Shown here: piece by piece, positions 8,681 to 36,676 of the stretch
Layout: every line of letters starts with the position of its first letter
Numbering within the stretch: the stretch's first letter is position 1
NCBI GenBank assembly: GCA_012519655.1
Contig: JAAYPS010000096.1
Location: 1-36,829 of the forward strand
From: Clostridiaceae bacterium
Lineage (GTDB): Bacteria; Bacillota; Clostridia; DSM-8532
Length of the DNA: 36,829 nt
Direction of reading: 5' to 3'
The notes under the pieces: model-generated
Told to the model about the DNA's origin: nothing
The model's database searches: none
The model's input: the letters and a program-made list of their open reading frames with translations, nothing else
Made by a program: the position numbers and the translations under genes

Positions 8681-8684
8681 ACTT

Positions 8685-8710
8685 AAGGAGAGCAATAGCT
8701 CTCCTTTTTT
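8685..8710 (+). terminator. Rho-independent terminator after the zinc-ribbon gene
   Basis: AAGGAGAGC (8685-8693) pairs with GCTCTCCTT (8698-8706) around an AATA loop, and a run of T follows to 8710. Confidence 0.9.
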
Positions 8711-8745
8711 ATTTTCATAAAAAAGCACTTGTTTTGCGCAAATAT

Positions 8746-8774
8746 TTGATATTTATCACGTAATACTGTACAAT
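8746..8774 (+). promoter_or_regulatory. Sigma-A promoter of the nuclease-helicase gene
   Basis: TTGATA (8746-8751), a 17-base spacer and TACAAT (8769-8774). Transcription should start near 8782, inside or just before the LexA-type box at 8783-8794. Confidence 0.75.
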
Positions 8775-8782
8775 AACAAACG

Positions 8783-8794
8783 GAACATTTGTTC
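8783..8794. promoter_or_regulatory. LexA (DinR) SOS box
   Basis: GAACATTTGTTC is a perfect match to the Gram-positive LexA core GAAC-N4-GTTC. It begins 8 bases after the -10 box, so bound LexA would block transcription of the nuclease-helicase gene. This makes DNA damage the likely inducing signal. lexA itself is not in the window. Confidence 0.8.
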
Positions 8795-8807
8795 TAAAAA
8801 TTGAAAT

Positions 8808-8850
8808 GAGGGCAAAGGTACACGACGCTATTTTAGTAGCCTCGTTCCCT
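8808..8850 (+). promoter_or_regulatory. Structured leader of the nuclease-helicase gene
   Basis: The leader contains GAGGGCAAAGG (8808-8818) and later CCTC and CCCT (8840-8850), which can pair as AGGG:CCCT plus AGG:CCT. An alternative inner stem is ACGA-GCTA (8822-8830) with TAGC-TCGT (8837-8845). The ATG at 8867 has no nearby ribosome-binding site and an in-frame stop at 8837 excludes an upstream start. The layout resembles the leader at 1413-1455, with the shared motif GGCAAAGG. Confidence 0.4.
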
Positions 8851-8866
8851 ATTTTGCGACAAAACA

Positions 8867-16737: not shown

Positions 16738-16754
16738 ATCTTTTCAACCACCTT

Positions 16755-18251: not shown

Positions 18252-18257
18252 CGTAAC

Positions 18258-20047: not shown

Positions 20048-20128
20048 ATATGTACTTGCACCTCCGTCCTTTATCAACTCGGTATTCAAATAAAAAAAAA
20101 TATCATAGAATTGATGGTTGATTCTTAT

Positions 20129-20536: not shown

Positions 20537-21178
20537 TTATCTTTCTATAATTAATGCTACTTTTCCACTCATTGCAGAAATAAGTCTTCTTTCAACCTCA
20601 TTCCAGTTGACAAGTTGCCACCAAGCATTCACATAATCCGATCTTCTGTTCTGATAATCCAAATAATACGCATGCTCCCAAACATCACATACAAGGATTG
20701 GAATACCACTCCATTGTGTTAAGTTTTGATGTTTTTCTGCCTGTAATATTTCCATTCTACCCCATGTGGGTTGCCATGTTAAAATACCCCAACCAGACGC
20801 CTCAACATTTTCTGTTGCGAGTGTAAATTGATTCTTCATAGCCTCTATACTTCCAAAATACTGATTTGCATATGATACAGTCCTCTGTCCAGGTTGTCCT
20901 CCAGTGCCAACAGGAGCCATAATTGTCCAATATATACTGTGCAAAATGTGACCTGAACCATTATAAGCAAGTTCATTTTCCCAATACTTAATATACTCGA
21001 TATTATTTGTTTTACGTGCCTGTTCAAGATATAGCTCTGCCCTATTTAAGCCATTCACATACGCTTTGTGGTGTATATCATGGTGTATTCTTAATGTTTC
21101 AGCACCGATGACAGGTTCTAGTGCCTGATACGAGTATGGTAATGGTGGTAGTTTATGCATTCCTGGCATAACATACAT
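20537..21178 (-). CDS. sod: Superoxide dismutase (Fe/Mn family)
   Basis: 213 residues from ATG 21178. It begins with a family-typical HKLPPLPYSYQALEPVIG, and the four metal ligands can be placed by the family pattern: His about 32 (TLRIHHDIHHKAYVNGLN), His about 80 (GHILHSIYW), Asp about 165 and His about 169 (CDVWEHAYYLDYQNRR). It converts superoxide to oxygen and hydrogen peroxide in the cytoplasm; Fe versus Mn cannot be read safely. AAAGGG lies 9 bases before this ATG; a longer frame from GTG 21187 would overlap the ribosome-binding site. It sits alone between two sugar operons with a terminator upstream, so it is probably transcribed by itself and is unrelated to sugar use. Confidence 0.96.
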   Translation of the reverse strand: MYVMPGMHKLPPLPYSYQALEPVIGAETLRIHHDIHHKAYVNGLNRAELYLEQARKTNNIEYIKYWENELAYNGSGHILHSIYWTIMAPVGTGGQPGQRTVSYANQYFGSIEAMKNQFTLATENVEASGWGILTWQPTWGRMEILQAEKHQNLTQWSGIPILVCDVWEHAYYLDYQNRRSDYVNAWWQLVNWNEVERRLISAMSGKVALIIER

Positions 21179-21277
21179 ATACAACACCCTTTCAATGAGA
21201 GATTATGTTACCTATTTTATAGTATGAATCAAAATGTTTTTTGTTCGCTTATATTAGAATGTTAGTTACAATTTGAT

Positions 21278-21430: not shown

Positions 21431-22471
21431 TTATATCAGCTCGGTAAGCATCAAAAAGGTCAAACCTTGCCCATAGGCTGTCGGAGCAATGGGTATCTTT
21501 TTATAGAACTCTAAATCCTTACCCATACCCGTTCCATAAGATACACCTTGAACCATACCACTTTGATCTATTTTAGAAATAACTGCGTGGGCTGCTTTTC
21601 TCCCGTATTCCAAGTACTCTTCACCAACAATACCTAAGCGCACTCCTTTTAGGATCCCGTATGCAATACCTGCTGTTGCCGAAGTCTCATAGTATGTTTC
21701 TTCAACATCCAGTAGGGTGTTGAAAAGACCATTCTCGCCCTGATATTTTATCAGCTCTTTAACTTGGTCTATCCACGAAATCGTTATAAACCTTGATACA
21801 GAGTCATTTACTCCATATATATCAAGAAACTCCACAACGCTTGATGTAAACCAACTGTTTCCTCTTCCCCAAAAAGCGTCTGCATAATTGTGCTTACCAT
21901 CAAATGTCCAACCATGATAAAACAGACCTGTCTTTTTGTCTTGCAAATATTTTATATGGAAGAGAAATTGAAATCTTGCCTCATCTACATACTCATCCCT
22001 ATTGAGCACTTTTCCAGCTTTTAATAAAAACAAAACAGTCATAAAGAGGGTATCATCCCAAAGTTGTTCATAATGCCTGTTTAGAACTGTCATATGTTGC
22101 ATACCACCATATTGAGTACGAGGCATTTCATTCATTACCCAATCTGCCCACATGTTTATATGAGGAAGATACTTTTCATTTTTTGTTTCCTCATAAAGGC
22201 ACGTCATAGTCAGTGCCGGGCATACAGTGTTGACATTTTTATGAGGAGTGGGTTTGGACAGTTGAAAATCATACCATTCGGTTAGGTAATCTAAGTATTT
22301 GGTATTATTTGTCCTTTTATAGACCTTGTACATACTATAAAGGGCTACACCAGTAGGCCACTCCCAATTATCCATATGTAAGTGGTCATATAAACCTTCT
22401 CTCTCCTTATTGTTTACTAACATACCTACTACCTTGTCGGCAAGTTCAAGCATTTCAACATTTACTGACAT
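21431..22471 (-). CDS. GH105 unsaturated rhamnogalacturonyl hydrolase (YteR/YesR-like)
   Basis: 346 residues, the usual length of a single-domain GH105, with no signal peptide. The (alpha/alpha)6 barrel has the family blocks WEWPTGVALYSMYKVYK, WDDTLFMTVLFLLKAGK with the likely catalytic Asp, NYADAFWGRGNSWFTSS and YYETSATAGIAYGILKG. It releases the 4,5-unsaturated galacturonate end from lyase-made rhamnogalacturonan oligosaccharides in the cytoplasm. The start was moved to ATG 22471 because AAAGGTGG lies five bases upstream; an in-frame GTG at 22480 falls within that site. It is the last gene of the GH105-acetylesterase-GH105 operon and is followed by a strong terminator. Confidence 0.94.
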   Translation of the reverse strand: MSVNVEMLELADKVVGMLVNNKEREGLYDHLHMDNWEWPTGVALYSMYKVYKRTNNTKYLDYLTEWYDFQLSKPTPHKNVNTVCPALTMTCLYEETKNEKYLPHINMWADWVMNEMPRTQYGGMQHMTVLNRHYEQLWDDTLFMTVLFLLKAGKVLNRDEYVDEARFQFLFHIKYLQDKKTGLFYHGWTFDGKHNYADAFWGRGNSWFTSSVVEFLDIYGVNDSVSRFITISWIDQVKELIKYQGENGLFNTLLDVEETYYETSATAGIAYGILKGVRLGIVGEEYLEYGRKAAHAVISKIDQSGMVQGVSYGTGMGKDLEFYKKIPIAPTAYGQGLTFLMLTELI

Positions 22472-22501
22472 AAAAACCACCTTTCTTCTTCTATATTAAC
22501 C

Positions 22502-23182
22502 TTACTTTAAATGTCTTGCTAACGGTAAGCCAATCTCCTTCATTCCTTTAACCACAAGCCCTGCAATTTCATATGCTCCATCATCATTAAAATGGGTGTC
22601 ATCTTGAGAACCATCGGGGTAATTTTCTGATTCTCCAGGCTTTAAATAAAGAAATAATCTTTTTGACTCTTGTTCACCTAGCATTTTATAATAATCCTCA
22701 CTTAACGCTGTGAGATCAATAAATGGCACATCAAATTCTTCACAAATCTCTTTTACAGCTTGAGGATAAGCACCATGTGTAGGATAGAATTGACTAAATT
22801 CATTAAATCTTCTACGATTAACTGGGGACAAAAGAACAGGCGTAGCGCACTTTTGTCGAGCACCGTCAATATAGCGCTTTAAGTATGACTGATATGTTCC
22901 AAAAGGATCTGCATACACCCCATTCAATTTTTCATCATTGTGACCGAATTGAACAAGTAGTGTATCCCCAGCCTCAATGCGGTTTAAAATCTGGTCAAGT
23001 AGTCCTTCATCTATAAAACTTTTTGTGCTTCTTCCGCCAAGAGCATAATTATGAACATGTACATAATCCTTAAAATACCTTGGAAGCATTTTGCCCCAAC
23101 CTTCCTGTGGTCTATAGGACGAAGCGCAGTTTTGCACTGTTGAATCTCCTGCTATATAAATACCCACCTTTGAATCGAGCAT
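22502..23182 (-). CDS. Rhamnogalacturonan acetylesterase (CE12-like, SGNH hydrolase)
   Basis: 226 residues. The SGNH blocks are all present: block I GIYIAGDSTVQ with nucleophile Ser14, block II Gly in YALGGRSTKSF, block III Asn in LVQFGHNDEK, and block V DDTHFNDDGAYEIAG with the catalytic Asp and His. The architecture matches CE12 (YesT/RhgT) enzymes, which remove acetyl groups from galacturonate in rhamnogalacturonan I. The lack of a signal peptide points to action on imported oligosaccharides. The ATG at 23182 has GGAGGT 7 bases upstream and starts one base after the TGA of the preceding GH105 gene, indicating translational coupling; a longer frame from 23269 lies inside that gene and is rejected. 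Confidence 0.93.
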   Translation of the reverse strand: MLDSKVGIYIAGDSTVQNCASSYRPQEGWGKMLPRYFKDYVHVHNYALGGRSTKSFIDEGLLDQILNRIEAGDTLLVQFGHNDEKLNGVYADPFGTYQSYLKRYIDGARQKCATPVLLSPVNRRRFNEFSQFYPTHGAYPQAVKEICEEFDVPFIDLTALSEDYYKMLGEQESKRLFLYLKPGESENYPDGSQDDTHFNDDGAYEIAGLVVKGMKEIGLPLARHLK

Positions 23183-23183
23183 A

Positions 23184-25409
23184 TCAGTTACCTCCATCTG
23201 TAAGATAATCCAATAGTTTTGCGTATTCCACTCCTGCAAGTAAAACAATTCCAGTTCCATGTGTATCATTTAACTGCCAGCCAAGATCATTTACATAGTA
23301 GTCCTCAGAAAATGAAAAACCTGATCCTTTGCAAATTCCATATACATTACCACTGGTATCTATAGCCTCACGGCATAAGCCTTTCCATGCTTTACGCACC
23401 GATTCGGTGTATTTATATTCTTCTTTGAGCCACCCATTGCGTACACCTCTTGAAAAAGCACATATAAACATGGATGTACATGATGATTCGGGGTAAGATT
23501 CATGATTGGTTAAAACCTGATGCCATAGGCCCTTTTCATCCTGAAGAGCAAGATATCCTTTACATAACTCGTTAAAATTATGGATTAGCTGTTCCCTTAA
23601 ATCATGTTCTTGAGGTAAGAAGCTTAATAGTTCAGAATATGAGAAGGCAACCCATCCATTACCACGTCCCCATGATACTTCAGTGGCCCTTTTGTGTTTA
23701 ACATCATAAACATGGGACATTATTTTTTTATCAGACCTATATAAGTACTTGTGATATAAAACTAACTGTTTTGCTGCATCGTCTATATATTGTTGTTGAC
23801 CAGTCATTTTGTAATAACGGCAAAGAAAAGGAATACTCATATATAGATCATCTGCCCAGATTGTTTCATCCATTAACAGATGTGCTGGATTTACACGGTA
23901 CAGCGTACCATCTGGTAACCTGTCTAGTTTATTGGCAATAAAGTCTGCAATATAATCTGCTATTTTTACATAATCATAACTAATATCTCTATCGTCTCTA
24001 TCTTCGTTATCATGCTCTATATCTTCTCCTATTTCTTCCAACTCTTTAGAAGTTTCAAGCATTAGAGAACCAAAAGAACCGCAATCATCCAGGGTGCTGA
24101 TTGTAGAAAGGAGGTTGTGCAGACTTGCCGCTCCATACTTTTCTTTGTCCCATAGAGCATAATCGAAATATCGTGTACACATATGTACATGTGATGTGGC
24201 ATAGTCAATAAGAGCCTTGTCATGTAGATATCGACCTGTTTCAATAAGACCGTATAGCGTCACTCCTAATGGATAATTCCAATGACCATATAATTTATTG
24301 TCATTAAAAGGTCTTATAACTGTATGCGGTTTATCAAGTCTCCAGTATACTCTGTTATCTTCAGCTCCAAAAGGTTTATCTGTTTTATAAAGATTATCAG
24401 GCTCTAACTTAGTTGAAAGAGGAATTGGACCTGCATAAACCCATTCTTCATCCGTACCCATTACTTTCAAAGGGTTAATATACTGAATTTTTCTACCGTC
24501 GAAAAAACAATCTGCTGCAAATCCCCAATCTTTTTCACTACATTCATTTATTACTAAAATATTATGATATCCACATTTCAAACAAGTTTGTAACTCAAAA
24601 TCTTTCGATGCTTCAGAATTGAAAACCAGAGATTTGTCAATGTAAATCTTAATAGGCCCTGAATTTCTACCCTTTATAATGTATTCGCCACTTTTTTCAG
24701 CGAATACTGTTGTCCATCCAATAGCTTTGCAGTTTTTTCTCAGTGAATACATTCTCATCATTTGACCCATGGTCTCTTCTTCAGGCAACCATTTATTGAT
24801 TGGGTACCACGTAACACCAGTTTCTTCTTCTTTCATCCCAACCTCTGGAAGCTGAGCCAATGGCTTGTTCAAAGGGAGAGTATACAGCCATCCCCTCTGT
24901 GATTGTCTGTCTTGTGATGGAATAATAAAACTCTGCGGTCGGTTTCTTGATGATATGGCACTTAAAGTACCTCCGCAACCAGTATTAGTGCGAATGAACC
25001 TTAATACAAAATTATTCCAACCCTTTTTCAATTGAACAGAAAAAGTCGTTGAAATATCTCTCATTCTTTCTATTAAAACATTAGGCTTGAATACTCTTTG
25101 TCCGTTGCAATATATTATGACAGGTCCAAAACAACTAATTTCAAAGGTCATGTTCATATCATGGTCACTGTAGAGTTTACTCCATGCATATACACTGCTT
25201 TCGAGAGGCGACAGTGGATACAGGTCATGAAAATCAAAAACGAATCTATAATCGTTATCCTGTCTTATACCATTTTTCTGGTATGCATAGTAAGATACAT
25301 CATATGAAGGATTTTGACCGATATAGCGACTAGCAACAGTCTTTAGAACAGTGTTGATATCCTGAGTCATTGAGAAAATGGCATGTTCGTTATCAAAATA
25401 ATAGCCCAT
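23184..25409 (-). CDS. Large two-part GH105-family hydrolase with N-terminal beta-rich extension
   Basis: 741 residues, about twice the usual GH105. The C-terminal half (about 375-735) is a GH105 alpha/alpha barrel: GHWNYPLGVTLYGLIETGRYL, ETIWADDLYMSIPFL (likely catalytic Asp pair near 519-521), VSWGRGNGWVAFSYSELL (about 578-595) and YPESSCTSMFICAFSRGV. The N-terminal half (about 1-365) is beta-rich, with two stretches resembling jelly-roll or galactose-binding-like modules (WNNFVLRFIRTNTGCGG, GEYIIKGRNSGPIKIYID); its family is not recognised. An acidic insert (EEIGEDIEHDNEDRDDRD) lies near 460-475. AAGGGGG is 9 bases before ATG 25409. It leads an operon with the acetylesterase and the short GH105, so its substrate is likely an acetylated or branched rhamnogalacturonan fragment. 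Confidence 0.88.
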   Translation of the reverse strand: MGYYFDNEHAIFSMTQDINTVLKTVASRYIGQNPSYDVSYYAYQKNGIRQDNDYRFVFDFHDLYPLSPLESSVYAWSKLYSDHDMNMTFEISCFGPVIIYCNGQRVFKPNVLIERMRDISTTFSVQLKKGWNNFVLRFIRTNTGCGGTLSAISSRNRPQSFIIPSQDRQSQRGWLYTLPLNKPLAQLPEVGMKEEETGVTWYPINKWLPEEETMGQMMRMYSLRKNCKAIGWTTVFAEKSGEYIIKGRNSGPIKIYIDKSLVFNSEASKDFELQTCLKCGYHNILVINECSEKDWGFAADCFFDGRKIQYINPLKVMGTDEEWVYAGPIPLSTKLEPDNLYKTDKPFGAEDNRVYWRLDKPHTVIRPFNDNKLYGHWNYPLGVTLYGLIETGRYLHDKALIDYATSHVHMCTRYFDYALWDKEKYGAASLHNLLSTISTLDDCGSFGSLMLETSKELEEIGEDIEHDNEDRDDRDISYDYVKIADYIADFIANKLDRLPDGTLYRVNPAHLLMDETIWADDLYMSIPFLCRYYKMTGQQQYIDDAAKQLVLYHKYLYRSDKKIMSHVYDVKHKRATEVSWGRGNGWVAFSYSELLSFLPQEHDLREQLIHNFNELCKGYLALQDEKGLWHQVLTNHESYPESSCTSMFICAFSRGVRNGWLKEEYKYTESVRKAWKGLCREAIDTSGNVYGICKGSGFSFSEDYYVNDLGWQLNDTHGTGIVLLAGVEYAKLLDYLTDGGN

Positions 25410-25538
25410 GTACAATATCCCCCTTATCAAACTACCTCGATTTGCATAAAATATAGAAAATTAGAACAAAAAAGCCTAATCTGAATAATTATTAAGTAAA
25501 TATACCTTTATAAAGCATGTCTACTAAAATATTACCTT

Positions 25539-25613: not shown

Positions 25614-27257
25614 TTACTTTGCTTTTATTGTTATTGTATGATCGAAATTAGTATAATCGGTCATATATAGAATGTAACTTAGCTCATTGGTTGAGTCTTC
25701 TGAATACCCACCTCTTATAAACTCGTGGGTTGCAAATCCTCCTGAAATAACAAGATTGTCATTATTCTTTGTAAAATGAAATTTGCCATTTTTAAGTATC
25801 ATACCGTTATTTCCCTTGGTTTCAATTATAAAATTATCTGCGTACAGCTTTCCAGATACAGGCAGACTTATCTCCACTCTTATTGGAATCCTGTCAATCC
25901 CATTTGTTTTTATACGGACATCAATGCCATCATTAATATCAGTGATCTCTACGATAATTTCAGTGAAACTATTTATTAGTAACTCTCTGCTTGCATTATC
26001 CATCTGCCACCAATCTTGTGTTTCAGGCTCATGCTTGAAGGGCATATAATACCAGCCATCTGCTTTAAATTTCATTATATAGGTATTTTCTTTGTGTACT
26101 ATATGGTCTGCTCTAAAGTTTCTATGTTGAAAATAACTAACACCTATTTTCATTCCCAACCTTGTTGCGTTGTTTTGAAAAAATAAAAAGTTATTCTCGT
26201 TTTGTAAAAGTGAATATGTAATGTTTCCTTTGCGAGCCCTAACCAGACCAGAGTATGGAAAGTATTTATTATATTGGGTTGGAAAGCCTTTGTTTATCAA
26301 TTCTATATCCTGCATCCAGTCATAAAGCATAAATAAATGAAGGCAATCAATAGAATAGTCATTGTTTTCAATGGCATTTAATATTATTTGATGGGCAGCT
26401 GCACTAAATTTATCTCCGTTATTTTTGCTCTTTTGAGACATATACAAGAACTGGTAGAAATACTTAGCTCCATATTCTTTTCTTCCTTTATCCTGTCTTA
26501 ATGAGTTCTCTGTAAATATTGTTCCGTCAGCATCTATCATCATTAGCATCATATTAAGGTTCCGATCCACATACTCGAGATACTTTATGTCTCCTAATTC
26601 CTCAGAAAGCATTATCATAGCTGTATTAACAACTGCATTATAGTTTCCAGAGGATCTCTCTGAGTATTCGCCATCCTCAGTACAATCAATAGGCTCAATG
26701 AAATATTCATTCATTCTGTCAATACAGCGCTCAACAAGGCTTTTATCTTCTATGATATTTGAGCAAGCTGCAAGCCCAGCCGTTATCGCCCAACGATGAT
26801 TTGGAGTATGAAAACCACCTGTTATTAAGGCATTAGCTGCACAATATATGATGGAATATAATTTGTTTTTTATATGTTCCATACTATTTACGCTATCATA
26901 CTTTTCAATTAGCCAATATGTATAAGTTAGTCTCTTTAAAATAAAAGCAGTATCAGGTGCACTTTTGAAATTACAGCTTGCATAATCAAAACTACCATCT
27001 TCACGCTGATATTTCTTTATAAAGTCATATGCAAGAGATATTCTATCTAGAAGTGATTTACTACTATAAAAATTACTTTTTGGATTTAGGTATGCAGCAA
27101 TAGCAGTACAGCAGGAATAAACCGTCATTTTTACATCTATAAATGGCCCTTCAATTGAACCATGGTCGGGTCTGTTCTTATCCATTACCTGATTACTAAT
27201 GAAATAATTAGTTTTCTTATCTGCACTTTCAACAATATAATCGTAATACTTTTTCAT
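25614..27257 (-). CDS. Unclassified alpha/alpha-toroid polysaccharide-lyase-like protein
   Basis: 547 residues, no signal peptide. The first 330 or so residues are helical with repeats suggesting an (alpha/alpha) toroid, and the rest (about 340-547) is beta-rich, ending in a sandwich-like region. This two-part layout is that of heparinase II/III-type lyases and relatives. Conserved-looking clusters are GGFHTPNHRWAITAGLAA (about 147-164), DGEYSERSSGNYN (195-207) and TENSLRQDKGRKEYG (249-263); the Asn-His and Tyr in the first two sit where such lyases carry catalytic residues. I cannot assign a CAZy family. GGAGGG is close (about 4 bases) to the ATG. It lies 73 bp after the GH38 gene, so it may act on the same glycan. 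The exact reaction is unknown. Confidence 0.7.
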   Translation of the reverse strand: MKKYYDYIVESADKKTNYFISNQVMDKNRPDHGSIEGPFIDVKMTVYSCCTAIAAYLNPKSNFYSSKSLLDRISLAYDFIKKYQREDGSFDYASCNFKSAPDTAFILKRLTYTYWLIEKYDSVNSMEHIKNKLYSIIYCAANALITGGFHTPNHRWAITAGLAACSNIIEDKSLVERCIDRMNEYFIEPIDCTEDGEYSERSSGNYNAVVNTAMIMLSEELGDIKYLEYVDRNLNMMLMMIDADGTIFTENSLRQDKGRKEYGAKYFYQFLYMSQKSKNNGDKFSAAAHQIILNAIENNDYSIDCLHLFMLYDWMQDIELINKGFPTQYNKYFPYSGLVRARKGNITYSLLQNENNFLFFQNNATRLGMKIGVSYFQHRNFRADHIVHKENTYIMKFKADGWYYMPFKHEPETQDWWQMDNASRELLINSFTEIIVEITDINDGIDVRIKTNGIDRIPIRVEISLPVSGKLYADNFIIETKGNNGMILKNGKFHFTKNNDNLVISGGFATHEFIRGGYSEDSTNELSYILYMTDYTNFDHTITIKAK

Positions 27258-27330
27258 AAACCCTCCTGACTCATTGACCTAGTAAAATTATTCTTACTTA
27301 ATGATTCATAATTCCGTGAGATTTAATAGT

Positions 27331-30300
27331 TTACTTTATATTAGTTCTTATTCTCAATGTCTTTATTTCAAAGGGCCTAAACAGAAGTGACATTTTGTTG
27401 TTATGAGTTGATATTTCTCTTTTCTTTTCCTCTAGCATATTTGTCTCCCATACCTTCGCAGCACAAATATAAGTCGATATATCGCATGCCGATGTGGTGC
27501 CAGTACTTTCATATAGTCTAAGTATTATATCACCCGAGCGATCTTCAGCAAGTTTTACAGATTCAATGATAATATTTTTCATATCGACATAAAATAGCTG
27601 TTTATCTCCCGCATCTCCTTCTATAAGTAACACAGGGGAATTTAAATTATAGGCTTCTCTAATAACATCACTTTGCGAAAAAGCACCATTCCACAGATAT
27701 ATTGAGTAAGTGAATTCATGTATTCCTCTGTCTGCTGTCATATCTGGTACAAGTGCAGATTTTAGTAAAGTAAGATTAATGCTGCCACCAGACACATTAA
27801 CACCGTACTTGCAGTCATTTAATATTGCAAAGCCTCTATTTGCTTCAGCTATCGCTGTCCATTTATGATTGCATACTTCAAACCTATCTGCATCGTATTG
27901 TCTTGACTTATGATTAGGTCTTTTTATATACCCAAACTGTATCTCGTGTAGCGCTTCATTTGTATGTATGTTAGTTGGAAAATTCACTTTCAATAGCTTG
28001 TGGTCTTCTGCCCAGTCTATCGTGGTTATAAAATCAAGCCTTCGACTCTTGCTACTTAAAATAATCTCCTGCGTCATCAACGAGTTATTTAGCTTTCTTT
28101 TCACCTTTATACTAGCAACATAGTCACCTTGACATAGCACCTCAATTTTTGCACTTGTATCCAATACCACAGGAACACTTTCATACATGCTGTCAATGTC
28201 CCAAGCGTCGTAATATGCAGTTACATCCCGATACATCTTAAAGTCATTACACAGTCCTGCAGTATAATCAAATCCAGTTTGTTTATCAAGTATCTGTGTG
28301 ATTTGACCTACTTTATTAAAGCTTACATGAAGATATTCGTTCTCCAAATAATACTCTTCACCAGTTTCGCCAGTAATAGCACCACTTGTTTCGTTTTGAG
28401 CTCTCATGTCTGCATCCAATGCTTTTCCTATGGTTTCAACTTCTTTTTTTTCCTCGGCCAATAAATCGTCATTTAGGGATGTAGCCTTTTTAATTATATT
28501 ATATTCGTCTCTTAACGGCTCAATGGTTGTCCACCCACATGAAGGTATTCTCACTTTTGCATGTGGCGTATCAGATATGTATTGAACAGGTATTATTCTA
28601 CCATCATATATTCTAACTGATTTCGTACCAGTTGGTAGGGCAATTACTTCTTCTCTCTCCCAAGATAATGAGTTAAATATTGATATTTTATTGCTCTTGC
28701 TTGTTAGAGCTGAAAAAGCTTCATGCTGTATAGCCTTGGCTGTATCAATAACTTTCTTGTAATCAGCTTCTGCCTCTTCATGTACCCTTTTAATAGAAGT
28801 ACCTGCAAGTATATCATGGAATTGATTGAATAACACAATCTTCCATAAACTTTCCAACTCATCATAAGGGTATTCTGTTTGCTCAATCTGGTTTGATATA
28901 GCAAGCCAGAATTCACATTCTCTTAATGCAAACTCAGATTTTCTATTTCCTTTCTTTGTCTTTGCTTGACTTGTATATGTACCCCTATGCGCTTGGAAAT
29001 ATAGTTCTCCAACATATTTGTTTTTGGGTAGTCCTTGTTTTTCAATATCTTTGAAGAATTCATTGGGCTGGCTCATTTTCGTTCTCGGTACTCCCTCAAG
29101 ATCACCAAGTCTTCTGGCATATTCTACATGATACCTTGTAGGTCCTCCACCGCCATCACCAAAACCAAAGGGAAATATGAACGTTGAAATATCTTCCTGC
29201 TGTTTCCTATGTTCTTCCCACTTTTGTATAATCATCTCGGGATCTAGATGAGAGTTGTTTCTGTGGTGTATGTGGGTTAATATACTTGTTCCGTCAATAC
29301 CTTCCCACATAAATATATTATACGGGAAAGGATCTGCGTCATGATAATTGCGTACTATTTTTTGTGTTGAAAAATATTCAATACCGCAACCTGTAGCAAT
29401 CTGAGGAAGTGCAGCAGAAAACCCAAAAGTATCAGGAAGCCATAAAAGTTTGCTTTCTATACCAAGCTGTTGGCTAAAAAACTTTTTCCCATAAACAAAC
29501 TGCCTTATGAGGCTTTCACCTGAAGGTAAATTCGTGTCGGGTTCTACCCACATACCACCTTCTGGCATTATTTGCTTCTGCTCAACTTTATCGAGTACGC
29601 GCTTATATAACTGTGGATAGTGTTTTTTTAACATTTCAAACAAAGGCGGTTGTGTTATAAAAAATTTGTACTCAGGATATTCGTCCATCATTTCTAGTTG
29701 GGTAGACATTGTGCGACCAATTTTCCTCTCAGTTTCCTTCAATGGCCAAAGCCACGCTAAATCAAGATGTGATTGACCAAAAATATACATAAGAGGGCTG
29801 GTTGAACCATTTACACATTTAAGAAGTGGAGCAAGTCTTTCTCTGCAAGATTTAAATGTACTAATTCTTTTTTCATATGGAAGCTCAAAATCCACAATCA
29901 ACGTAAAATCTTTCAATGCTTTTGATATTTCCTGAGCTCGCAATGATTTACTGTCGATTCTTATCATAACTTTATAAAGGGTGGTTACATCTATGAATAG
30001 TTGGAAGGCCTCTTCTTCCCAAATACCGAACGAGCTTACACCCATTTGAGCTTGATGGCCTTCTGGTTCGGGCACAGCAACCCTACCGGGTGGGGTTGGA
30101 CCAATGTTCTCAATCCGCGGGCCATGTCCTGCATAGCTTTCTATGACAATATCATATGTATTATTTGGTATCCCCGAATTTGTTAGGGTAATTTCTTCAT
30201 GAGCATGATCTATTGAGCATGATACTTTACCGTTTATATATACAATACTCTCAGCTCCAGTATCGGGTTTTACAACAATACGTTTGCCAAGTGCAGCATC

Positions 30301-30582
30301 AGGAAGTGTAATAGTTCCTTTAAACCAGCCATACTCCCATTTTGCTCCCCAACTTGCACCTGGACTCATTGGAGAAAAATTACTATTTATAGCTTCATCA
30401 TAAGTCAATAAATCATATGTAGTAAAACCTGACAGTTCAATTTCCCCTAAAGGTATATAGAAATGATTTAATAGTTCTCTAATCCAAAGTTTTATTCTTT
30501 GTCCCCATTCCTTTTGATACGGATATTCCTTAAAACCAAATAAGTACTTCTTCACTTCACTGTTCAGCTTAGTTATTTCCAT
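27331..30582 (-). CDS. Alpha-mannosidase, GH38
   Basis: 1083 residues, typical for bacterial GH38, without a signal peptide. An N-terminal beta domain (about 1-255) precedes the catalytic domain: GQSHLDLAWLWPLKETERKI with the zinc ligands His272 and Asp274, MWVEPDTNLPSGESLIRQF, and WLPDTFGFSAALPQI with the expected nucleophile Asp384. The middle three-helix region and C-terminal beta domains (about 650-1083) complete the fold. It hydrolyses alpha-mannosides with retention of configuration; linkage preference cannot be read. AGGAGG lies 6 bases before the ATG. It is sandwiched between iolG and the toroid protein on the same strand, which raises the possibility of a mannosylated inositol substrate, though this is only inference. 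Confidence 0.97.
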   Translation of the reverse strand: MEITKLNSEVKKYLFGFKEYPYQKEWGQRIKLWIRELLNHFYIPLGEIELSGFTTYDLLTYDEAINSNFSPMSPGASWGAKWEYGWFKGTITLPDAALGKRIVVKPDTGAESIVYINGKVSCSIDHAHEEITLTNSGIPNNTYDIVIESYAGHGPRIENIGPTPPGRVAVPEPEGHQAQMGVSSFGIWEEEAFQLFIDVTTLYKVMIRIDSKSLRAQEISKALKDFTLIVDFELPYEKRISTFKSCRERLAPLLKCVNGSTSPLMYIFGQSHLDLAWLWPLKETERKIGRTMSTQLEMMDEYPEYKFFITQPPLFEMLKKHYPQLYKRVLDKVEQKQIMPEGGMWVEPDTNLPSGESLIRQFVYGKKFFSQQLGIESKLLWLPDTFGFSAALPQIATGCGIEYFSTQKIVRNYHDADPFPYNIFMWEGIDGTSILTHIHHRNNSHLDPEMIIQKWEEHRKQQEDISTFIFPFGFGDGGGGPTRYHVEYARRLGDLEGVPRTKMSQPNEFFKDIEKQGLPKNKYVGELYFQAHRGTYTSQAKTKKGNRKSEFALRECEFWLAISNQIEQTEYPYDELESLWKIVLFNQFHDILAGTSIKRVHEEAEADYKKVIDTAKAIQHEAFSALTSKSNKISIFNSLSWEREEVIALPTGTKSVRIYDGRIIPVQYISDTPHAKVRIPSCGWTTIEPLRDEYNIIKKATSLNDDLLAEEKKEVETIGKALDADMRAQNETSGAITGETGEEYYLENEYLHVSFNKVGQITQILDKQTGFDYTAGLCNDFKMYRDVTAYYDAWDIDSMYESVPVVLDTSAKIEVLCQGDYVASIKVKRKLNNSLMTQEIILSSKSRRLDFITTIDWAEDHKLLKVNFPTNIHTNEALHEIQFGYIKRPNHKSRQYDADRFEVCNHKWTAIAEANRGFAILNDCKYGVNVSGGSINLTLLKSALVPDMTADRGIHEFTYSIYLWNGAFSQSDVIREAYNLNSPVLLIEGDAGDKQLFYVDMKNIIIESVKLAEDRSGDIILRLYESTGTTSACDISTYICAAKVWETNMLEEKKREISTHNNKMSLLFRPFEIKTLRIRTNIK

Positions 30583-30678: not shown

Positions 30679-31689
30679 TCAAAGATAAACGGTCTCGGCT
30701 TTACCCGACTGTAGAGATTTTTTAGCAGCTTGAGCAATCAATACAGAAATAAGTCCGTCCACACCGTTCACTGGTGGTTTTTTGTTATGTAATATACAAT
30801 CAATAAATTCCCCAATTTCGTTTATAAAGGATTCCTTATACCTTTCAAGAAAAAAGTATTTTGGTTTCTCAGATAAAACACCATTTTTGTCACTTAGAAC
30901 AGCAAGAGAATTGATCTCATTTGATACTGTTATACATCCCTCCGAGCCAAAGACCTCTATACGCTGGTCATATCCGTATACTGCCTTTCTACTATTATCT
31001 ATAATACCAATAGCACCATTTTCAAACTTTAACACCACAGCCGCGGTATCTATATCACCTAAATCAGCTATTGATTTGTCCACCAACGTATCGCCCGTCG
31101 CATATACTTGTATTACCTCACTGCCAGATAAGTATCTTGCCATGTCAAAATCGTGAATTGTCATATCCATAAAAAGTCCACCCGACACTTGTATATATTC
31201 CGGTGTAGGCGGCTCAGGATCTCTTGATGTTATTTTAACAACATGTACCTTTCCTATTTTTCCCTCTCTAACAGACTCATATGCTCCTCTGAAATTCTTA
31301 TCAAACCTTCTATTAAAACCCACCTGAAAAACTACTCCTGCCTCTTTCACACAGTTGAGAACCTCTTTTATTCTATCTGGGTCCATATCAATAGGTTTCT
31401 CACAGAAAATATGTTTCCCAGCTTTTGCAGCCTCAATTGAAATTTGTGCATGGGTATCGGTCGGAGAGCATATCAAGATAGCATCAATCATTGGATCATT
31501 TAATATATCTTTATAATCTCCAGTTAGATTCTCAATTCCAAGACCATTGGCCCACTCTGATAGATTTTTGTAGAAAAGATCAGAAATAGCTGCTATTTTA
31601 ACATTTCTATGATAAGCCACAATGTTCTGTGCATGTAGCTTCCCAATTCTTCCTGCGCCAATAATACCTATATTTAATATTTTTTCCAT
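30679..31689 (-). CDS. iolG: Inositol 2-dehydrogenase, Gfo/Idh/MocA family
   Basis: 336 residues. The Rossmann motif IGIIGAGRIGKLHAQNI is at 5-21, the family EKP motif in HIFCEKPIDMD near 92-102, and the substrate-binding FMDMTIHDFDMARYLSGS near 170-187 holds the catalytic Asp and His. It oxidises myo-inositol to scyllo-inosose with NAD+. The start was moved to ATG 31689 because GGAGGT lies four bases before it; an in-frame ATG at 31707 lies upstream of that site. The identification as inositol dehydrogenase is strengthened by the nearby iolO, iolN and iolM genes, which use the product. Other family members act on other polyols, so the substrate remains partly contextual. Confidence 0.9.
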   Translation of the reverse strand: MEKILNIGIIGAGRIGKLHAQNIVAYHRNVKIAAISDLFYKNLSEWANGLGIENLTGDYKDILNDPMIDAILICSPTDTHAQISIEAAKAGKHIFCEKPIDMDPDRIKEVLNCVKEAGVVFQVGFNRRFDKNFRGAYESVREGKIGKVHVVKITSRDPEPPTPEYIQVSGGLFMDMTIHDFDMARYLSGSEVIQVYATGDTLVDKSIADLGDIDTAAVVLKFENGAIGIIDNSRKAVYGYDQRIEVFGSEGCITVSNEINSLAVLSDKNGVLSEKPKYFFLERYKESFINEIGEFIDCILHNKKPPVNGVDGLISVLIAQAAKKSLQSGKAETVYL

Positions 31690-31708
31690 GTTAACCTCCA
31701 TTTTCATT

Positions 31709-31902
31709 TAATCTCGTATAAAACAAGATTAAAGTTTTAAGAGCATTTTGGGTTAAATATTTCGCATCCAATGTACAATTCTTGTGGTATGTATTAGAAT
31801 TTCTTCAAAATATTGCACAGCAAATACTTATCATGGTTATACTGCAGAAGTCTTGTAAAAAATGCTAACTGTCTGTCTCTTAATTTCTGTATAACGAGAT
31901 TA
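31709..31902. repeat. Inverted repeats framing the iolO-iolG spacer
   Basis: TAATCTCGTATA (31709-31720) and TATAACGAGATTA (31890-31902) are inverted copies differing by one base insertion, about 170 bases apart. They frame the non-coding spacer between iolO and iolG, and the right arm includes the iolO stop codon. The arrangement could be the ends of a small MITE-like insertion or a long-range mRNA stem. There is no transposase and no clear target duplication. Confidence 0.4.
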
Positions 31903-32733
31903 CCCAGATATATTAAGGGATTTTATGTATTTAAGTCCCTCAACTGAGGCAATTTCTGGTTCTGGCCAGGGTAAATATTCAAAAGCAGCGTAACCATCGT
32001 AATTAATTTCATTAAGTGTTTTTAGTATGCCCGCAAAATCTATGTGCCCTGCTCCCGGTCTTCTTCTGTTACTATCTGCAAAATGCATATGACCAAGAAA
32101 ATCTTTGCACTCCTTTATGCTGTCATACATGCCAGTTAGACCGTGTTCTTCAATATTCATATGGAATGTATCAAGAAGGATTTTAATTTTGTTACTTCCG
32201 AGTTTTTTAATAAAATCACGCATTTCGATTGAAGAATTGTGGAAATTGTTTTCATATCTATTAACTGGTTCTAAAAGAATTGTTACTCCTTTTTTCTCAG
32301 CGTAATCGGCTAATAATAACAACGATTCGCTGTAATTTTTCATAGCTCTTTCTTTATCTTGTTTATGTCCTTCTGGAATTCTGCCCCTCATTGAGCCAAT
32401 GATAACGCCGCAATGCAATATTGAAGCAATATCAATATGTTCCTTAAGTCGTGCTATGGCTTGCCCTCTTTTGATATCATCATTATCAGTCAGAAAAAGC
32501 CCATCTAGTGTATATCCTAATCCAGTGCCAATAGTGGATATTTTAATATTGTGTTTCTGGCATACTTTGTCTATGGAGCTGGTATCTATGTCATCAGCTT
32601 TTCTAATATGTAGTTCAACGGCATCAAAACCATTTTCTGCACAGAATTCAATGGTTTTAATCATATTGCCTTTAAAAAGATATGGTGAAAATTCAGTACC
32701 AGCACTTGCTACTGTAGCACTATACTTTATCAT
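31900..32733 (-). CDS. iolO: 5-keto-L-gluconate epimerase (IolO-type TIM barrel)
   Basis: 277 residues, a xylose-isomerase-like TIM barrel. Expected metal ligands are Glu155 (LLEPVNRYENNF), Asp188 (LLDTFHMNIEE), His215/His217 (HMHFADSNRRRPGAGH) and Glu252 (AAFEYLPWP). The phrases STIGTGLGYTLDGLFLT, GVIIGSMRGR and HFADSNR..PG.GH recall the Thermotoga maritima IolO (TM0416) sequence as I remember it. That enzyme converts 5-keto-L-gluconate to D-tagaturonate in the inositol pathway. AGGAGG is 5 bases before the ATG. It lies between iolN and iolG, separated by gaps of about 190-210 bp that contain inverted repeats. A ketose 3-epimerase or other TIM-barrel isomerase is the main alternative. Confidence 0.82.
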   Translation of the reverse strand: MIKYSATVASAGTEFSPYLFKGNMIKTIEFCAENGFDAVELHIRKADDIDTSSIDKVCQKHNIKISTIGTGLGYTLDGLFLTDNDDIKRGQAIARLKEHIDIASILHCGVIIGSMRGRIPEGHKQDKERAMKNYSESLLLLADYAEKKGVTILLEPVNRYENNFHNSSIEMRDFIKKLGSNKIKILLDTFHMNIEEHGLTGMYDSIKECKDFLGHMHFADSNRRRPGAGHIDFAGILKTLNEINYDGYAAFEYLPWPEPEIASVEGLKYIKSLNISG

Positions 32734-32793
32734 AACTCCTCCTAATATGTACTTGATTATTATACTAAGAGTATTCTAATATAGTTTAATCTA

Positions 32794-32847
32794 GCTTTGC
32801 AAGTGTATGTGCACCAACACAAGAGCGTCGATGCACATACATCAAGC
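32794..32847. repeat. Intercistronic hairpin between iolN and iolO
   Basis: TGTATGTGCA (32804-32813) and TGCACATACA (32832-32841) form a perfect 10-bp stem; after an internal loop GCTT (32794-32797) and AAGC (32844-32847) can extend it. The T run (TTTTT) follows on the plus strand, where no gene is present, so on the iol message it is more likely a processing or stability element. Confidence 0.55.
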
Positions 32848-32926
32848 TTTTTGACATTCATGTTATAGCATAGCAATGATCTTTTCATATTGTGTTATTC
32901 ATATCTTTGTCATTCATCCTAAAAGC

Positions 32927-34045
32927 CTATAACTTAGTAAATACCCCCAAAGGCGGCAACTCATAGACAGACTTCCATCCCTCTGTAAGAGGTTCCTTCA
33001 AGAATGGTTCCATTTCTTTCTCTGTCCTCAAAGTAGTTTTTTCAATAGGTGGCACTGTACCAGCAGGATAAGCCTCAAGAATCTGATCATGTACTAATGT
33101 CAGATACTTCAGTATTGCAGCAATAGGTCTTTTAGCTTTTTCTTTTGTTGCTATGGATGGTTTCCCAACAACACCTTCAGGTGTTGCAGCCCTTTCTATT
33201 GCAGCATGACCTTCACCTTCGGACCAACGATGTGGTCTTCTAAATGGATCTACCGATTTATCAAAATGTCCATCTGGAAGGAAGCTTTCGCCTTCTGCAT
33301 CTTGGACTAGAGACATGTCGACCATTTTTTCAAACATTAACAGAGCTACCGATGTTTCTGCTTCATCAGCATGAACAAAATGCGTTTCCATACTACCGTC
33401 TCTATTAACAGGATAGAAAAACTCACGCACAGCCCTGTGCCAATCCAATACGCGAAAAATACCCGGTAGATGGAACCTTTTCATAAACTCTTGAATTGCT
33501 GCTTCAAGCATCCATAAATGACCATGATTATTTATCATAATGATTTTTCTAAATCCATCATTCCATAAACCTAGCATCATATAGATAAGGGTTTCCTTCA
33601 CTACTTCTTCAGGCATTACTACAGTTCCTGGCATACCTAGATGATGGTATGGATGACCCCCATAGTTTAACGGTGGGAAGGCTAAGCTTACCTCACAACC
33701 TTTTTTTGCAGTATACCTTCTTAAACCTTCAAGTATCTGAGTAACCATGAAAGTATCAAGGCCGCTATTTGCATGTATTCCATGATTTTCTGTGCATCCT
33801 ATGGGAACAAATACAATGTCATTTTTTCTTCTTCTTTCGATAACTTTAACACGTGGAGTGTTTTGTATGTAACTACCAGCCTTACCCAACTCGGATTCTG
33901 ATGGTATTTCGTATTCTTCAAGTATCTTGTCTATTTCATCTTCTGAAGCATCCCAAAGTTGTTTTTTTAGCCTTCCCACAGTATTATCTTCAAAAATAAT
34001 AGCTGGGTTATCTGTTAGTAACCATTTCTTATCCTTTTCCGACAT
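32927..34045 (-). CDS. iolN: 3-dehydro-scyllo-inosose hydrolase (creatininase family, IolN)
   Basis: 372 residues, longer than plain creatininase. The creatininase metal motifs are visible: GCTENHGIHANSGLDTF (about 83-99, with Glu, His and Asp ligands), INNHGHLWMLEAA (about 171-183) and HADEAETSVALL (about 225-236). In T. maritima IolN opens the ring of 3-dehydro-scyllo-inosose to give 5-keto-L-gluconate. The gene is 14 bp after iolM, indicating one operon. The start was moved to ATG 34045, with GGAGGT 6 bases upstream; an in-frame TTG at 34063 overlaps the iolM stop. The assignment depends on the iolM neighbour and family resemblance, since creatininase-family members also act on other cyclic substrates. 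Confidence 0.85.
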   Translation of the reverse strand: MSEKDKKWLLTDNPAIIFEDNTVGRLKKQLWDASEDEIDKILEEYEIPSESELGKAGSYIQNTPRVKVIERRRKNDIVFVPIGCTENHGIHANSGLDTFMVTQILEGLRRYTAKKGCEVSLAFPPLNYGGHPYHHLGMPGTVVMPEEVVKETLIYMMLGLWNDGFRKIIMINNHGHLWMLEAAIQEFMKRFHLPGIFRVLDWHRAVREFFYPVNRDGSMETHFVHADEAETSVALLMFEKMVDMSLVQDAEGESFLPDGHFDKSVDPFRRPHRWSEGEGHAAIERAATPEGVVGKPSIATKEKAKRPIAAILKYLTLVHDQILEAYPAGTVPPIEKTTLRTEKEMEPFLKEPLTEGWKSVYELPPLGVFTKL

Positions 34046-34059
34046 CTTAATACCTCCAA

Positions 34060-35262
34060 TCAATCATCCATGATACAAGTAATCTTGCATTCTTTTCTGT
34101 CTGTTCTTAGCATTACAATATTCTCAGGAACATCATCCAACTTTATTTTTTTAGTAACCATTGGTAGAACATCCATACCAGATGCTATACACTGAATTAC
34201 TCTAGGGAATGTACCTTCGCCCGAGTGACCTTGTGCTCCAACTATCTGTGCTCTTCTTACCTGAAGAACCTCACCACTAACAGGCATTTTGGCATCAGCT
34301 CTTGCCACTACAACTATTGTACTGTTGAGTGTTCTTCCTTCCCATATGGTCTGTTCTATAGAAGGATATACAGCTGTAGGTAACCCCGTAGCTTCAAGGT
34401 ACAGTTTAGCTCCCATACCATCTGTTATTTCGAGAACTCTTTGAGCAAAATCTTCTTCCAAAGGATTAATAATATAATCTGCTCCCATCACTTTTCCCAG
34501 CTCAGCTCTTTCTGCCTGAGGTTCGGATAGTATAACCCTTGCAGCGCCTTGTCGCTTAAGAATAGCGCAAGCTGCTAATCCAATTGGACCACCACCACAT
34601 ATAACAACATTATCTCCAGGTTTAATTCCTCCGCCCCTCTGTATAACTGCATTATATGCAACGGAACAAGGTTCAACGAGAGAGCCTGCGAGGAATATGT
34701 CATCCTCACTCTCATACATTCTTCTTAACGGTTCAAGACTCCATAAAAGTTTTGCAGGGAGAACTATATATTTTGCAAATCCACCATCTACATTAAAACC
34801 AATTTCATCAAGTCTTTCACAATGGTTCGGATAACCATCTGCACATGGCTGACAGCTGCCACACCATAGCATTTCCTCTGTACATACAATCTCGCCACCC
34901 TTATAGGGTTTGTTTGTTACCTTATCAATTGCACCTGGACCTGCTTCAACTACTACACCGGATAACTCATGCCCCAGAATTGAAGGAAAACCAGTTAATC
35001 CCGGATAGTAAATATATCCGTCATCGTCAGGTTGTGCCATATGTACATCACTTCCACATATACCACACGCCTTAACCTGAATTAATACTTCTCCTGGTCC
35101 AGGCTTTGGTATATCATATTCCCGAATTTCAATTTTTGGATTTTTCCATACCTGACTGCCAAGATATGTCTGTCTTTTGTCAATATCCTTAGGTCCTAAC
35201 TTAAAACCCTCTTTTGGCTCCCAGTCCGCAACAAGTGTTACACCCCTCATTTTACCGTTCAT
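34060..35262 (-). CDS. iolM: scyllo-Inosose 3-dehydrogenase (zinc alcohol dehydrogenase family, IolM)
   Basis: 400 residues. The zinc-dependent medium-chain dehydrogenase fold is clear: catalytic-zinc region KACGICGSDVHM (about 68-79) and LGHELSG (about 97-103), a structural zinc site with four cysteines in WCGSCQPCADGYPNHCE (about 133-149), and a Rossmann motif VVICGGGPIGLAA (about 219-231). The N-terminus has a long extra segment (GVTLVADWEPKEGFKLGPKD) as in the Thermotoga IolM type. It would oxidise scyllo-inosose to 3-dehydro-scyllo-inosose with NAD+. GAGGAGG precedes the ATG by 7 bases. It is the first gene of the iol operon, with a leader of about 270 bases containing a LacI-type operator, a short open frame and a hairpin. 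Confidence 0.87.
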   Translation of the reverse strand: MNGKMRGVTLVADWEPKEGFKLGPKDIDKRQTYLGSQVWKNPKIEIREYDIPKPGPGEVLIQVKACGICGSDVHMAQPDDDGYIYYPGLTGFPSILGHELSGVVVEAGPGAIDKVTNKPYKGGEIVCTEEMLWCGSCQPCADGYPNHCERLDEIGFNVDGGFAKYIVLPAKLLWSLEPLRRMYESEDDIFLAGSLVEPCSVAYNAVIQRGGGIKPGDNVVICGGGPIGLAACAILKRQGAARVILSEPQAERAELGKVMGADYIINPLEEDFAQRVLEITDGMGAKLYLEATGLPTAVYPSIEQTIWEGRTLNSTIVVVARADAKMPVSGEVLQVRRAQIVGAQGHSGEGTFPRVIQCIASGMDVLPMVTKKIKLDDVPENIVMLRTDRKECKITCIMDD

Positions 35263-35677: not shown

Positions 35678-36676
35678 TTAATACTTACCGCATGTACCTC
35701 TGACTATCAAAAAAGGTTCTAATATAATTTGCTTAGAATCCGCACTACCTGATATCAAATCAAGAAGTATATCAGCTGATTTTCGACCTATGTCAAACTT
35801 AGGTTGTGCAACTGTTGTAAGGTTTATTTTAGGTAGCGATCCAAATTCAATATCATCAATACCTATAATAGATATATCTTTAGGTACATCGTATCCATGC
35901 TTTTCAGCTGCTTCCATTATTCCAAGAGCAATAATATCATTCTCGGCAACAATAGCCGTAGGCACTTTCCTATTTTTCACCATCTTAAGAAAGGTACCGT
36001 ATCCGCTCTCCTTTTTAAAACTATAACCTTTTATGCTGTTTATGTCTGCTTCAAGTCGATTTTCTTTTAATGCTTGTTTGTAACCATTTATACGATCTAT
36101 GTGTGATGTGGATTTGTCGTGTCCACCTATAAAAGCAATGTTAGAGTGACCAAGTTTCATGAGATATTCGGTTGCCATATATCCTGCTTTAAAATCATCT
36201 ATAACAACATAATTTGATTTGTTACAATCCACTCTACTTCCTATATACACCACAGGTATATCCAATTTACTGTCTGAAACATAATCAATTGTGTCTGTAG
36301 AAACAGGTGCAATTATTATCCCATCTACTCGCCGTTCTTTTAGAATTGTAAGGTATTTCTGCTCATTTTCTTCATCCCAGTTTGTATTACACAGAAAAAC
36401 ACAATACCCATTTTCCCTTGCATAATCTTCAACACCTCTTGCAACTTCAGGATAAAATGGGTTGGTAATGTCGGGTATTAGAAGGGCTATCATTTCTGTA
36501 TTTTTCTTAACAAGTCCTCTTGCAACCGCATTGGGAGTATAGCCCATCTGTTGAGCTATTTCTTTTATTTTTTCCTTAGTTATCACATTAATTTCGGGAT
36601 GATCATTTAACGCTCTTGAAACCGTTGCATAGGACACCCCTGCTACTTTTGCGATATCTTTAATCGTTACAGCCAT
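35678..36676 (-). CDS. LacI-family transcriptional regulator, probable inositol-operon repressor
   Basis: 332 residues. Helix-turn-helix at 4-24 (IKDIAKVAGVSYATVSRALN), hinge helix around 48-57 (PNAVARGLVKK), and a sugar-binding-protein-like effector domain (about 60-330) with NTEMIALLIPDITNPFYPEVARGVEDYA and SIIGIDDIEFG. The C-terminus ends LIVRGTCGKY, where many LacI members have LVxRxS. It is upstream of iolM on the same strand, and the two share the operator core GTAAACGTTT in front of each, supporting autoregulation and control of the iol genes. AAGGG is 7 bases before the ATG. The inducer is inferred to be inositol or a pathway intermediate. Confidence 0.94.
   Translation of the reverse strand: MAVTIKDIAKVAGVSYATVSRALNDHPEINVITKEKIKEIAQQMGYTPNAVARGLVKKNTEMIALLIPDITNPFYPEVARGVEDYARENGYCVFLCNTNWDEENEQKYLTILKERRVDGIIIAPVSTDTIDYVSDSKLDIPVVYIGSRVDCNKSNYVVIDDFKAGYMATEYLMKLGHSNIAFIGGHDKSTSHIDRINGYKQALKENRLEADINSIKGYSFKKESGYGTFLKMVKNRKVPTAIVAENDIIALGIMEAAEKHGYDVPKDISIIGIDDIEFGSLPKINLTTVAQPKFDIGRKSADILLDLISGSADSKQIILEPFLIVRGTCGKY

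Follow-up and report, generated by a model that had tools for sequence, protein, structure and literature searches.

Gene content of the locus

The window, by which we mean the whole stretch of 36,829 nucleotides that was analyzed, carries the gene under study at positions 25614..27257 on the minus strand. The gene starts with ATG and encodes P0001, a cytoplasmic protein of 547 aa that is predicted to combine an (alpha/alpha)-toroid with a beta domain and is a putative uronate C4–C5 eliminase. The open reading frame and its length match those of the initial annotation exactly; the strand, absent there, is minus. A ribosome-binding site, AGGAGG, can be read from the sequence at 27262..27267 (minus strand), with 4 bases between its end and the ATG. 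Inspection of the N-terminal sequence for a hydrophobic stretch or export signal revealed none. The GC content is 0.331 in the gene vs 0.361 in the window.

The neighboring genes described here all lie on the minus strand. A GH38 alpha-mannosidase gene (27331..30582; PF01074) is located 73 bases upstream and provides the sole PF01074 match in the genome; the same holds for the cluster’s GH38 in a second genome, G193. A gene for a GH105-type unsaturated uronyl hydrolase (23184..25430; PF07470, 1e-62) lies 183 bases downstream, and nearby are a GDSL/SGNH esterase (22502..23269; PF13472, 9.4e-18) and a second GH105-type unsaturated uronyl hydrolase (21431..22480; PF07470, 1.2e-93). The cluster with GH38, GH105 and an acetylesterase that had been described earlier is thus recovered by Pfam as a GH38, two GH88/105-type proteins and a GDSL/SGNH esterase. 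The product of 23184..25430 has a long N-terminal extension of ~380 residues with no clear family, PA14 being below its cut-off.

Next to the gene lies an inositol pathway block (30679–35262) that was absent from the initial annotation. It encodes the inositol 2-dehydrogenase IolG (30679..31707; TIGR04380, 467.5 bits, cut-off 355), an IolO-like epimerase (31900..32733; NF041099, 267.7 bits, below the cut-off of 300), the 3-dehydro-scyllo-inosose hydrolase IolN (32927..34063; NF041098, 315.9 bits, cut-off 245) and the scyllo-inosose 3-dehydrogenase IolM (34060..35262; NF041097, 524.4 bits, cut-off 450). The block is headed by a LacI-type regulator (35678..36676) named by reading the sequence, and blastp synteny indicated the same order in genomes G193 and G304. 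The IolM/N/O route is presumably of Thermotoga-type origin. No inositol-phosphate phosphatase or phospholipase was recognized among the cluster genes, in annotations that were not aimed at either.

Two further features lie on the minus strand on the other side of the cluster. Next to a GH78 rhamnosidase, positions 15334–20089 encode a FucI-C isomerase-like protein, an FGGY kinase and a split transketolase, the latter named by reading the sequence; this block is mostly conserved in G193 and G304. The best NCBIfam match of the isomerase-like protein is the sulfoquinovose isomerase SftI (94 bits, cut-off 700), and whether the block constitutes an unusual deoxy-sugar route may be asked. A protein with an Fe/Mn superoxide dismutase domain is encoded within the sugar cluster at 20537–21187, and occupies the same place in G304 (85% identity) and G193 (79%).

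Conservation and superfamily relationships of P0001

Relatives of P0001 were identified in 26 of 391 genomes of the class and in 10 of 398 genomes of the phylum, 8 of the latter being new with respect to the class set. The one named relative is from Acidaminobacter sp. JC074. A plasmid collection yielded three records (two Subdoligranulum and one Streptomyces), and a viral-contig collection none. Two class-set matches, G344 (fragmentary and interrupted by stops) and G012 (partial), were dropped before counting, and the counts below use 32 genomes, 24 from the class set and the 8 new ones from the phylum set.

P0001 belongs to a real family of conserved bacterial proteins. In a 40-row family alignment, which takes in near-duplicates and three partial rows, the invariant positions are G148, T151-P152-N153-H154-R155-W156, E188, D191, G196, E200, S202, N233, T249, S252, R254, D256 and Y403, while Y206 and R424 are each kept in 39 of the 40 rows. 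The exception at Y206 is probably an alignment shift, because the Streptomyces row has a Tyr one residue earlier in the alignments. The Asn-His-Arg-Trp motif (codons at 26790..26801) lies at residues 153–156 and the acidic/Tyr cluster (codons at 26637..26675), DGEYSERSSGNYN with D195 at its start and Y206-N207 at its end, at 195–207, both as first described, and these pocket residues are kept, not lost, in the homologues. The invariant Tyr403 (codon 26049..26051) stands at +250 from Asn153, and the near-invariant Arg424 is encoded at 25986..25988; all of these codons are on the minus strand.

Database searches gave the family no name. P0001 had zero matches to Pfam and NCBIfam models at E values up to 10 and only a chance match (E 2.2) among PDB sequences, where a 30-row family profile, A1, gave a non-significant match to PL8 chondroitinase AC (E 0.11, profile positions 10–83). 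The Pfam cut-offs for Hepar_II_III_N and Hepar_II_III_C were reached by none of 30 proteins (P0001 and 29 relatives). PF07470 (GH88/GH105) was absent from P0001 and weak in 2 of 30 members (best E 0.001), and the PL8 model PF08124 (Lyase_8_N) was weak in 3 of 30 (best E 0.073), below its cut-off. The earlier claim that no nameable family applies therefore withstood the searches of Pfam, NCBIfam and PDB sequences, in which no significant match, and hence no strong match to an established family, appeared. An existing CAZy family that has no Pfam model may still cover P0001.

Membership in GH154 (DUF2264, PF10022) was weighed, as GH154 had been named in the initial annotation, dehydratase activity has been demonstrated for GH154 enzymes and the motifs are alike. 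Proteins with PF10022 match the structures 9o4u, 9nwf and 8oi4, so PF10022 corresponds to GH154. P0001 has no Pfam match to this model, and the hhalign comparison gave E 0.11 and a probability of 0.5; membership was rejected.

Profile–profile comparison by hhalign placed A1 closest to a Clostridia heparinase II/III set (Hepar_II_III_N proteins below 800 aa, 18 of 30 extracted), with E 4.4e-6 and a probability of 87, or 91 for the toroid alone. A PL8 set gave E 1.7e-5, with an alignment that ends at residue 203, short of the Tyr. Controls gave E 4.5e-4 (GH127), 0.011 (GH78), 0.028 (GH105) and 0.089 (GH38), from sets of unequal size (only 2 sequences for GH127 and 4 for GH78), and comparisons with reversed A1 all had E of at least 0.31; the probability was below 95 in every comparison. 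In the heparinase alignment, TPN-HRW stands opposite the SSSNW motif and DGEYSERSSGNYN opposite DGVHMERTPIYH of L065, which places N153 and Y206 on the heparinase II/III Asn and Tyr motifs. The motifs, initially said to fit no nameable family, indeed belong to no family named in Pfam or NCBIfam, but they do align with those of the heparinase II/III superfamily. L065 (532–2652, minus strand, contig C32 of genome G000) encodes an ordinary heparinase II/III protein in the window’s own genome, which matches heparinase III (4mmh) at 2.7e-37. At locus L051, a Hepar_II_III_C protein (7223–9082, plus strand) directly adjoins a family member.

The distance from Asn to Tyr is 53 in P0001 (N153/Y206) and 54, as counted from the alignment, in PL12 HepC. 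Reported active sites have a similar spacing: 53 in PL33 (N238 and Y291, with the His at H444; PMC11848413), 57 in PL17 Alg17c (N201 and Y258, with adjacent Asn-His and a second Tyr, Tyr450, at +249; PMC4765187) and 53 in the GH154 enzyme BcGDH (N176 and Y229; PMC12269599). For the active-site His of PL33 and PL17, the 40-row alignment offers no invariant counterpart, the nearest candidate being H378 (His in 9/40); H511 is kept in 33/40. Elimination is favored over hydrolysis because N153 and Y206 align with the heparinase II/III Asn and Tyr motifs, and in our judgement C4–C5 elimination on a uronic acid is quite probably the chemistry of P0001. Of the ‘lyase or hydrolase’ of the initial annotation, the lyase-type alternative is thus the one to which the alignment points. 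A purely hydrolytic reading was discarded on the profile controls, given the E value for GH105.

Two of the 30 aligned family members served as AlphaFold input, with P0001 as the query of model 1 and a relative as that of model 2. Both are low-confidence models (mean pLDDT 57.5 and 55.6), in which helices are predicted to about residue 317 and strands afterwards; pLDDT is mostly 70–86 in the toroid and mostly <50 in the beta half. The models are consistent with the alpha/alpha toroid and beta-rich half proposed at the outset. Foldseek searches of the PDB with model 1, a weak model, retrieved PL8, PL33, PL15, PL17, PL39 and PL12 enzymes and human dermatan sulfate epimerase 1 (DS-epi1) as the top 40 (E 1.4e-7 to 2.8e-4, TM ~0.3–0.4), with PL8 lyases leading; some of these PL numbers are our presumed assignments from structure titles. 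With model 2, also weak, the top 27 were of the same lyase class, the best being the heparinase III 4mmi (8.1e-7). The heparinase II/III-like layout suggested earlier thus agrees with the lyases of the (alpha/alpha)-toroid class that both weak models retrieved first.

The presence of DS-epi1 among the matches of these weak models would suit a uronate C5-epimerase of the same fold, but such an enzyme does not account for the GH105 and GH38 next to it in the cytoplasm, and we regard it as extremely improbable. Superposition by VIA-align on the toroid alone was non-specific, with GH88 hydrolases and epimerases at Z ~18 over ~280 residues; among two-domain lyases, GAGase VII (PL35, 8khw) gave Z 17.7 over 419 residues (rmsd 10.2). 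The GH88 superposition, together with the weak PF07470 matches in two members, speaks for a glycoside hydrolase on a toroid fold, either an alpha-glucuronidase or a GH88/105-like hydrolase. Against it stand the failed GH105 profile alignment and the conserved Asn and Tyr that align with lyase motifs, and we consider it very unlikely. From the models and profiles we infer that P0001 represents a previously undescribed family within the (alpha/alpha)-toroid plus beta-domain (heparinase II/III-like) lyase superfamily, with the detail of its fold at the level of prediction.

Linkage to inositol, GH105 and GH38 genes

Linkage was counted in the 32 genomes with a family gene, ‘near’ meaning within 20 kb and the expectation being that of uniform placement, which ignores the clustering of catabolic genes; related genomes are not independent in these counts, which cover GH105 and GH38 copies of at least 200 bits and IolG and IolE above their cut-offs. 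IolG exceeded its cut-off in 13 genomes and was near the family gene in 9 of them, at distances of 3.4–17.4 kb, compared with 0.20 expected under a null that ignores clustering and kinship; by genus, the figure was 4 of 6 (0.20 expected). IolE was near the family gene in 6 of the 12 genomes having one. GH105 genes above 200 bits were near it in 11 of 17 genomes having one (0.79 expected) and GH38 genes above 200 bits in 8 of 30 (1.16 expected). A hand-picked control set comprised copies more than 20 kb from the family gene in genomes with IolG (48 GH105 and 15 GH38). None of these GH105s was near IolG, and only one of the GH38s, which lies at the edge of the G604 cluster.

A second lineage is represented by L041 (genome G026), where the genes after the homologue encode IolD (917.9 bits, cut-off 715), an IolB-like protein (84.6, below 205), IolE (409.3, cut-off 290) and IolG (475, cut-off 355). 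Two different inositol routes therefore accompany the same enzyme: IolM/N/O in the window, and in L041 IolD/E together with an IolB-like protein.

Many members of the family have no inositol link. IolG did not exceed its cut-off in 19 of the 32 genomes; it was present yet unlinked in G082, G455, G715 and G754; and several clades (family f39 and others) have neither GH105 nor iol neighbors, those of f39 being beside other genes. The P0001 clade of the tree has 13 rows (support 89/98), of which 7 are inositol-linked and 4 have a GH105 without linked inositol genes. The other two are a second G304 copy, beside a GH38 on a 6-kb contig, and a Subdoligranulum member (L032) with no recognized neighbor. 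The inositol-linked label needs 3 changes on the tree, in which the Streptomyces row (L033) forms a long branch, and is not clearly clustered, because 208 of 500 shuffles were as low. Immediately upstream of a distant Subdoligranulum member (L034, 10846–11865) lies a GH105 gene, and no inositol genes were recognized there; the GH105 link therefore extends beyond the inositol clade. A KduI/IolB-family protein was present in 15 of 15 genomes tested, so an unsaturated uronate could be metabolized. A 725-aa protein with no Pfam match (L046, 6975–9149, plus strand), possibly another unnamed enzyme, occurs next to or near family members in the f39 genomes (L044–L047), L043 and L034.

Proposed function and comparison with known systems

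Our best explanation, which we hold at just under an even chance, is that P0001 is a cytoplasmic uronate eliminase of a new family, acting in its clade on an imported GlcA-inositol glycoside; we infer both the chemistry and the substrate. Asn153, with His154/Arg155, would neutralize the C5 carboxylate of a glucuronic acid, and Tyr206, the putative catalytic Tyr, perhaps with Tyr403 (equated with Tyr450 of Alg17c by spacing only), would transfer the C5 proton to the leaving group at C4. The product would be a delta-4,5-unsaturated uronosyl residue, to be taken off by the neighboring GH105 enzymes. A small imported glycoside is a likelier substrate than a polysaccharide, because P0001 carries no export signal and its gene is part of an inositol cluster; the ‘polysaccharide’ of the initial annotation is accordingly disfavored, and the glycoside is a candidate. 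That the substrate of the P0001 clade contains inositol is, in our judgement, somewhat probable.

P0001 may equally well dehydrate a terminal GlcA or cleave a glycan, because GH154 glucuronate dehydratases share the Asn–Tyr spacing. GH154, formerly called a beta-glucuronidase, is reported to convert terminal GlcA by dehydration into a delta-4,5 residue, which is subsequently taken off by GH88, and its genes to co-localize with GH88/GH105 (PMC12269599). By pathway logic, GH38 would act first if P0001 is a dehydratase; if P0001 is a lyase, only additional mannose would call for GH38. By analogy with GH154 we lean slightly toward water as the leaving group, since GH38 would be redundant if P0001 itself released mannose.

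An exo-acting lyase with a sugar leaving group would instead cut the 4-O-glycosidic bond to GlcA (e.g., Man-alpha1,4-GlcA) with no prior mannosidase, as PL17 and xanthan lyase do. GH105 usually acts after a lyase, and the profile neighbors of P0001, like the fold neighbors from the weak models, are true lyases. Moreover, N153/H154/Y206/Y403 mirror Asn201/His202/Tyr258/Tyr450 reported for PL17 Alg17c (PMC4765187). This activity is nonetheless the less probable one, as it would make the adjoining GH38 redundant for the Man-GlcA linkage and P0001 is cytoplasmic. The cluster might also degrade a xanthan-like side chain, P0001 being a lyase followed by GH105 and then GH38, the SGNH esterase removing acetyl groups and the inositol genes being unrelated. 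The xanthan side chain is Man-beta1,4-GlcA-beta1,2-Man. The R.UCG13 xanthan locus is described as having PL8, GH88, two GH38 and two esterases, a similar set of activities (PMC10881899). However, neither an endo-xanthanase nor a cellobiose phosphorylase was recognized in the window, PL8 is absent from its genome, and the two different inositol pathways beside the gene would go unexplained; we consider this route improbable.

For a uronate eliminase acting on a GlcA-inositol glycoside, the best candidate substrate in the P0001 clade would be the imported plant GIPC head, Man-alpha1,4-GlcA-alpha1,2-myo-inositol. GH38 would remove mannose, P0001 would unsaturate GlcA, GH105 would free inositol, and IolG, IolM, IolN and IolO would degrade it. 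Reported GIPC heads are alpha-D-Man-(1,4)-alpha-D-GlcA-(1,2)-myo-inositol in Brassicaceae (PMC12498067), with GlcNAc replacing Man in Solanaceae (PMC11496612). The cluster fits the four steps needed to consume this head, namely GH38, eliminase, GH105 and inositol catabolism. In our judgement GIPC specifically is a possible substrate, with the balance somewhat against it, and we suggest only tentatively that the family is the missing step in bacterial dismantling of the plant GIPC head, in which a GlcA-inositol dehydratase/lyase would lead through GH105 to either of two inositol pathways. A search of open-access PMC text returned no paper on the P0001 family or on bacterial GIPC-head catabolism; the family is nameless and hence hard to search for. 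In the passages searched, two reviews of bacterial inositol use (PMC12482443 and PMC9430895) mention no GIPC or glycosyl-inositol substrate.

GIPCs are reported to account for a substantial share of plant and fungal lipids (PMC11907402), and, according to a 2021 review, their digestion mechanism had not been clarified (PMC8268314). If the proposal is true, an unannotated family would mark out bacteria that feed on plant membrane lipids, and the question is testable, as head-group glycans have reportedly been synthesized (PMC12498067). Even without GIPC, P0001 would represent another candidate family for uronic acid removal by a dehydratase/lyase with GH105, recently recognized for GH154 in the published account (PMC12269599).

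Several known systems resemble P0001 in part. PL8 hyaluronate, chondroitin and xanthan lyases are the top Foldseek matches of model 1 and show weak Lyase_8_N similarity to three members, whereas their profile alignment stops short of the Tyr and no Pfam match exceeds the cut-off. PL33 (BT4410) and PL35 (GAGase VII) have the toroid plus beta fold, the former with the same N238–Y291 spacing of 53 and the latter aligned over 419 residues through 8khw; unlike P0001, they are glycosaminoglycan lyases with a conserved His, and PL35 has Mn2+. PL17 Alg17c, an exolytic enzyme for which a two-Tyr mechanism has been proposed (PMC4765187), shares the adjacent Asn-His and has Tyr residues at +57 and +249 (+53 and +250 in P0001, Tyr403 by spacing only), but no sequence relation was detected, an equivalent of His415 was not found in P0001, and alginate is not the expected substrate. 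PL12 heparinase III and the Hepar_II_III proteins provide the best profile alignment, including the Asn and Tyr motifs, whereas P0001 is cytoplasmic and shorter, none of 30 members has the Pfam match, and the catalytic His was not found. GH154 (BcGDH, 9O4U; BT_3677), which we take to have a toroid fold, differs in its PF10022 domain, its size (~400 aa in the solved enzymes), its hhalign result and its conserved R285/Y289, not located in P0001. It is alike in the Asn-Trp motif and the Tyr at +53 (N176, W178, Y229), in working with GH88/105, in the two-Tyr elimination proposed for it and in its terminal GlcA substrate, toward which we lean for P0001.
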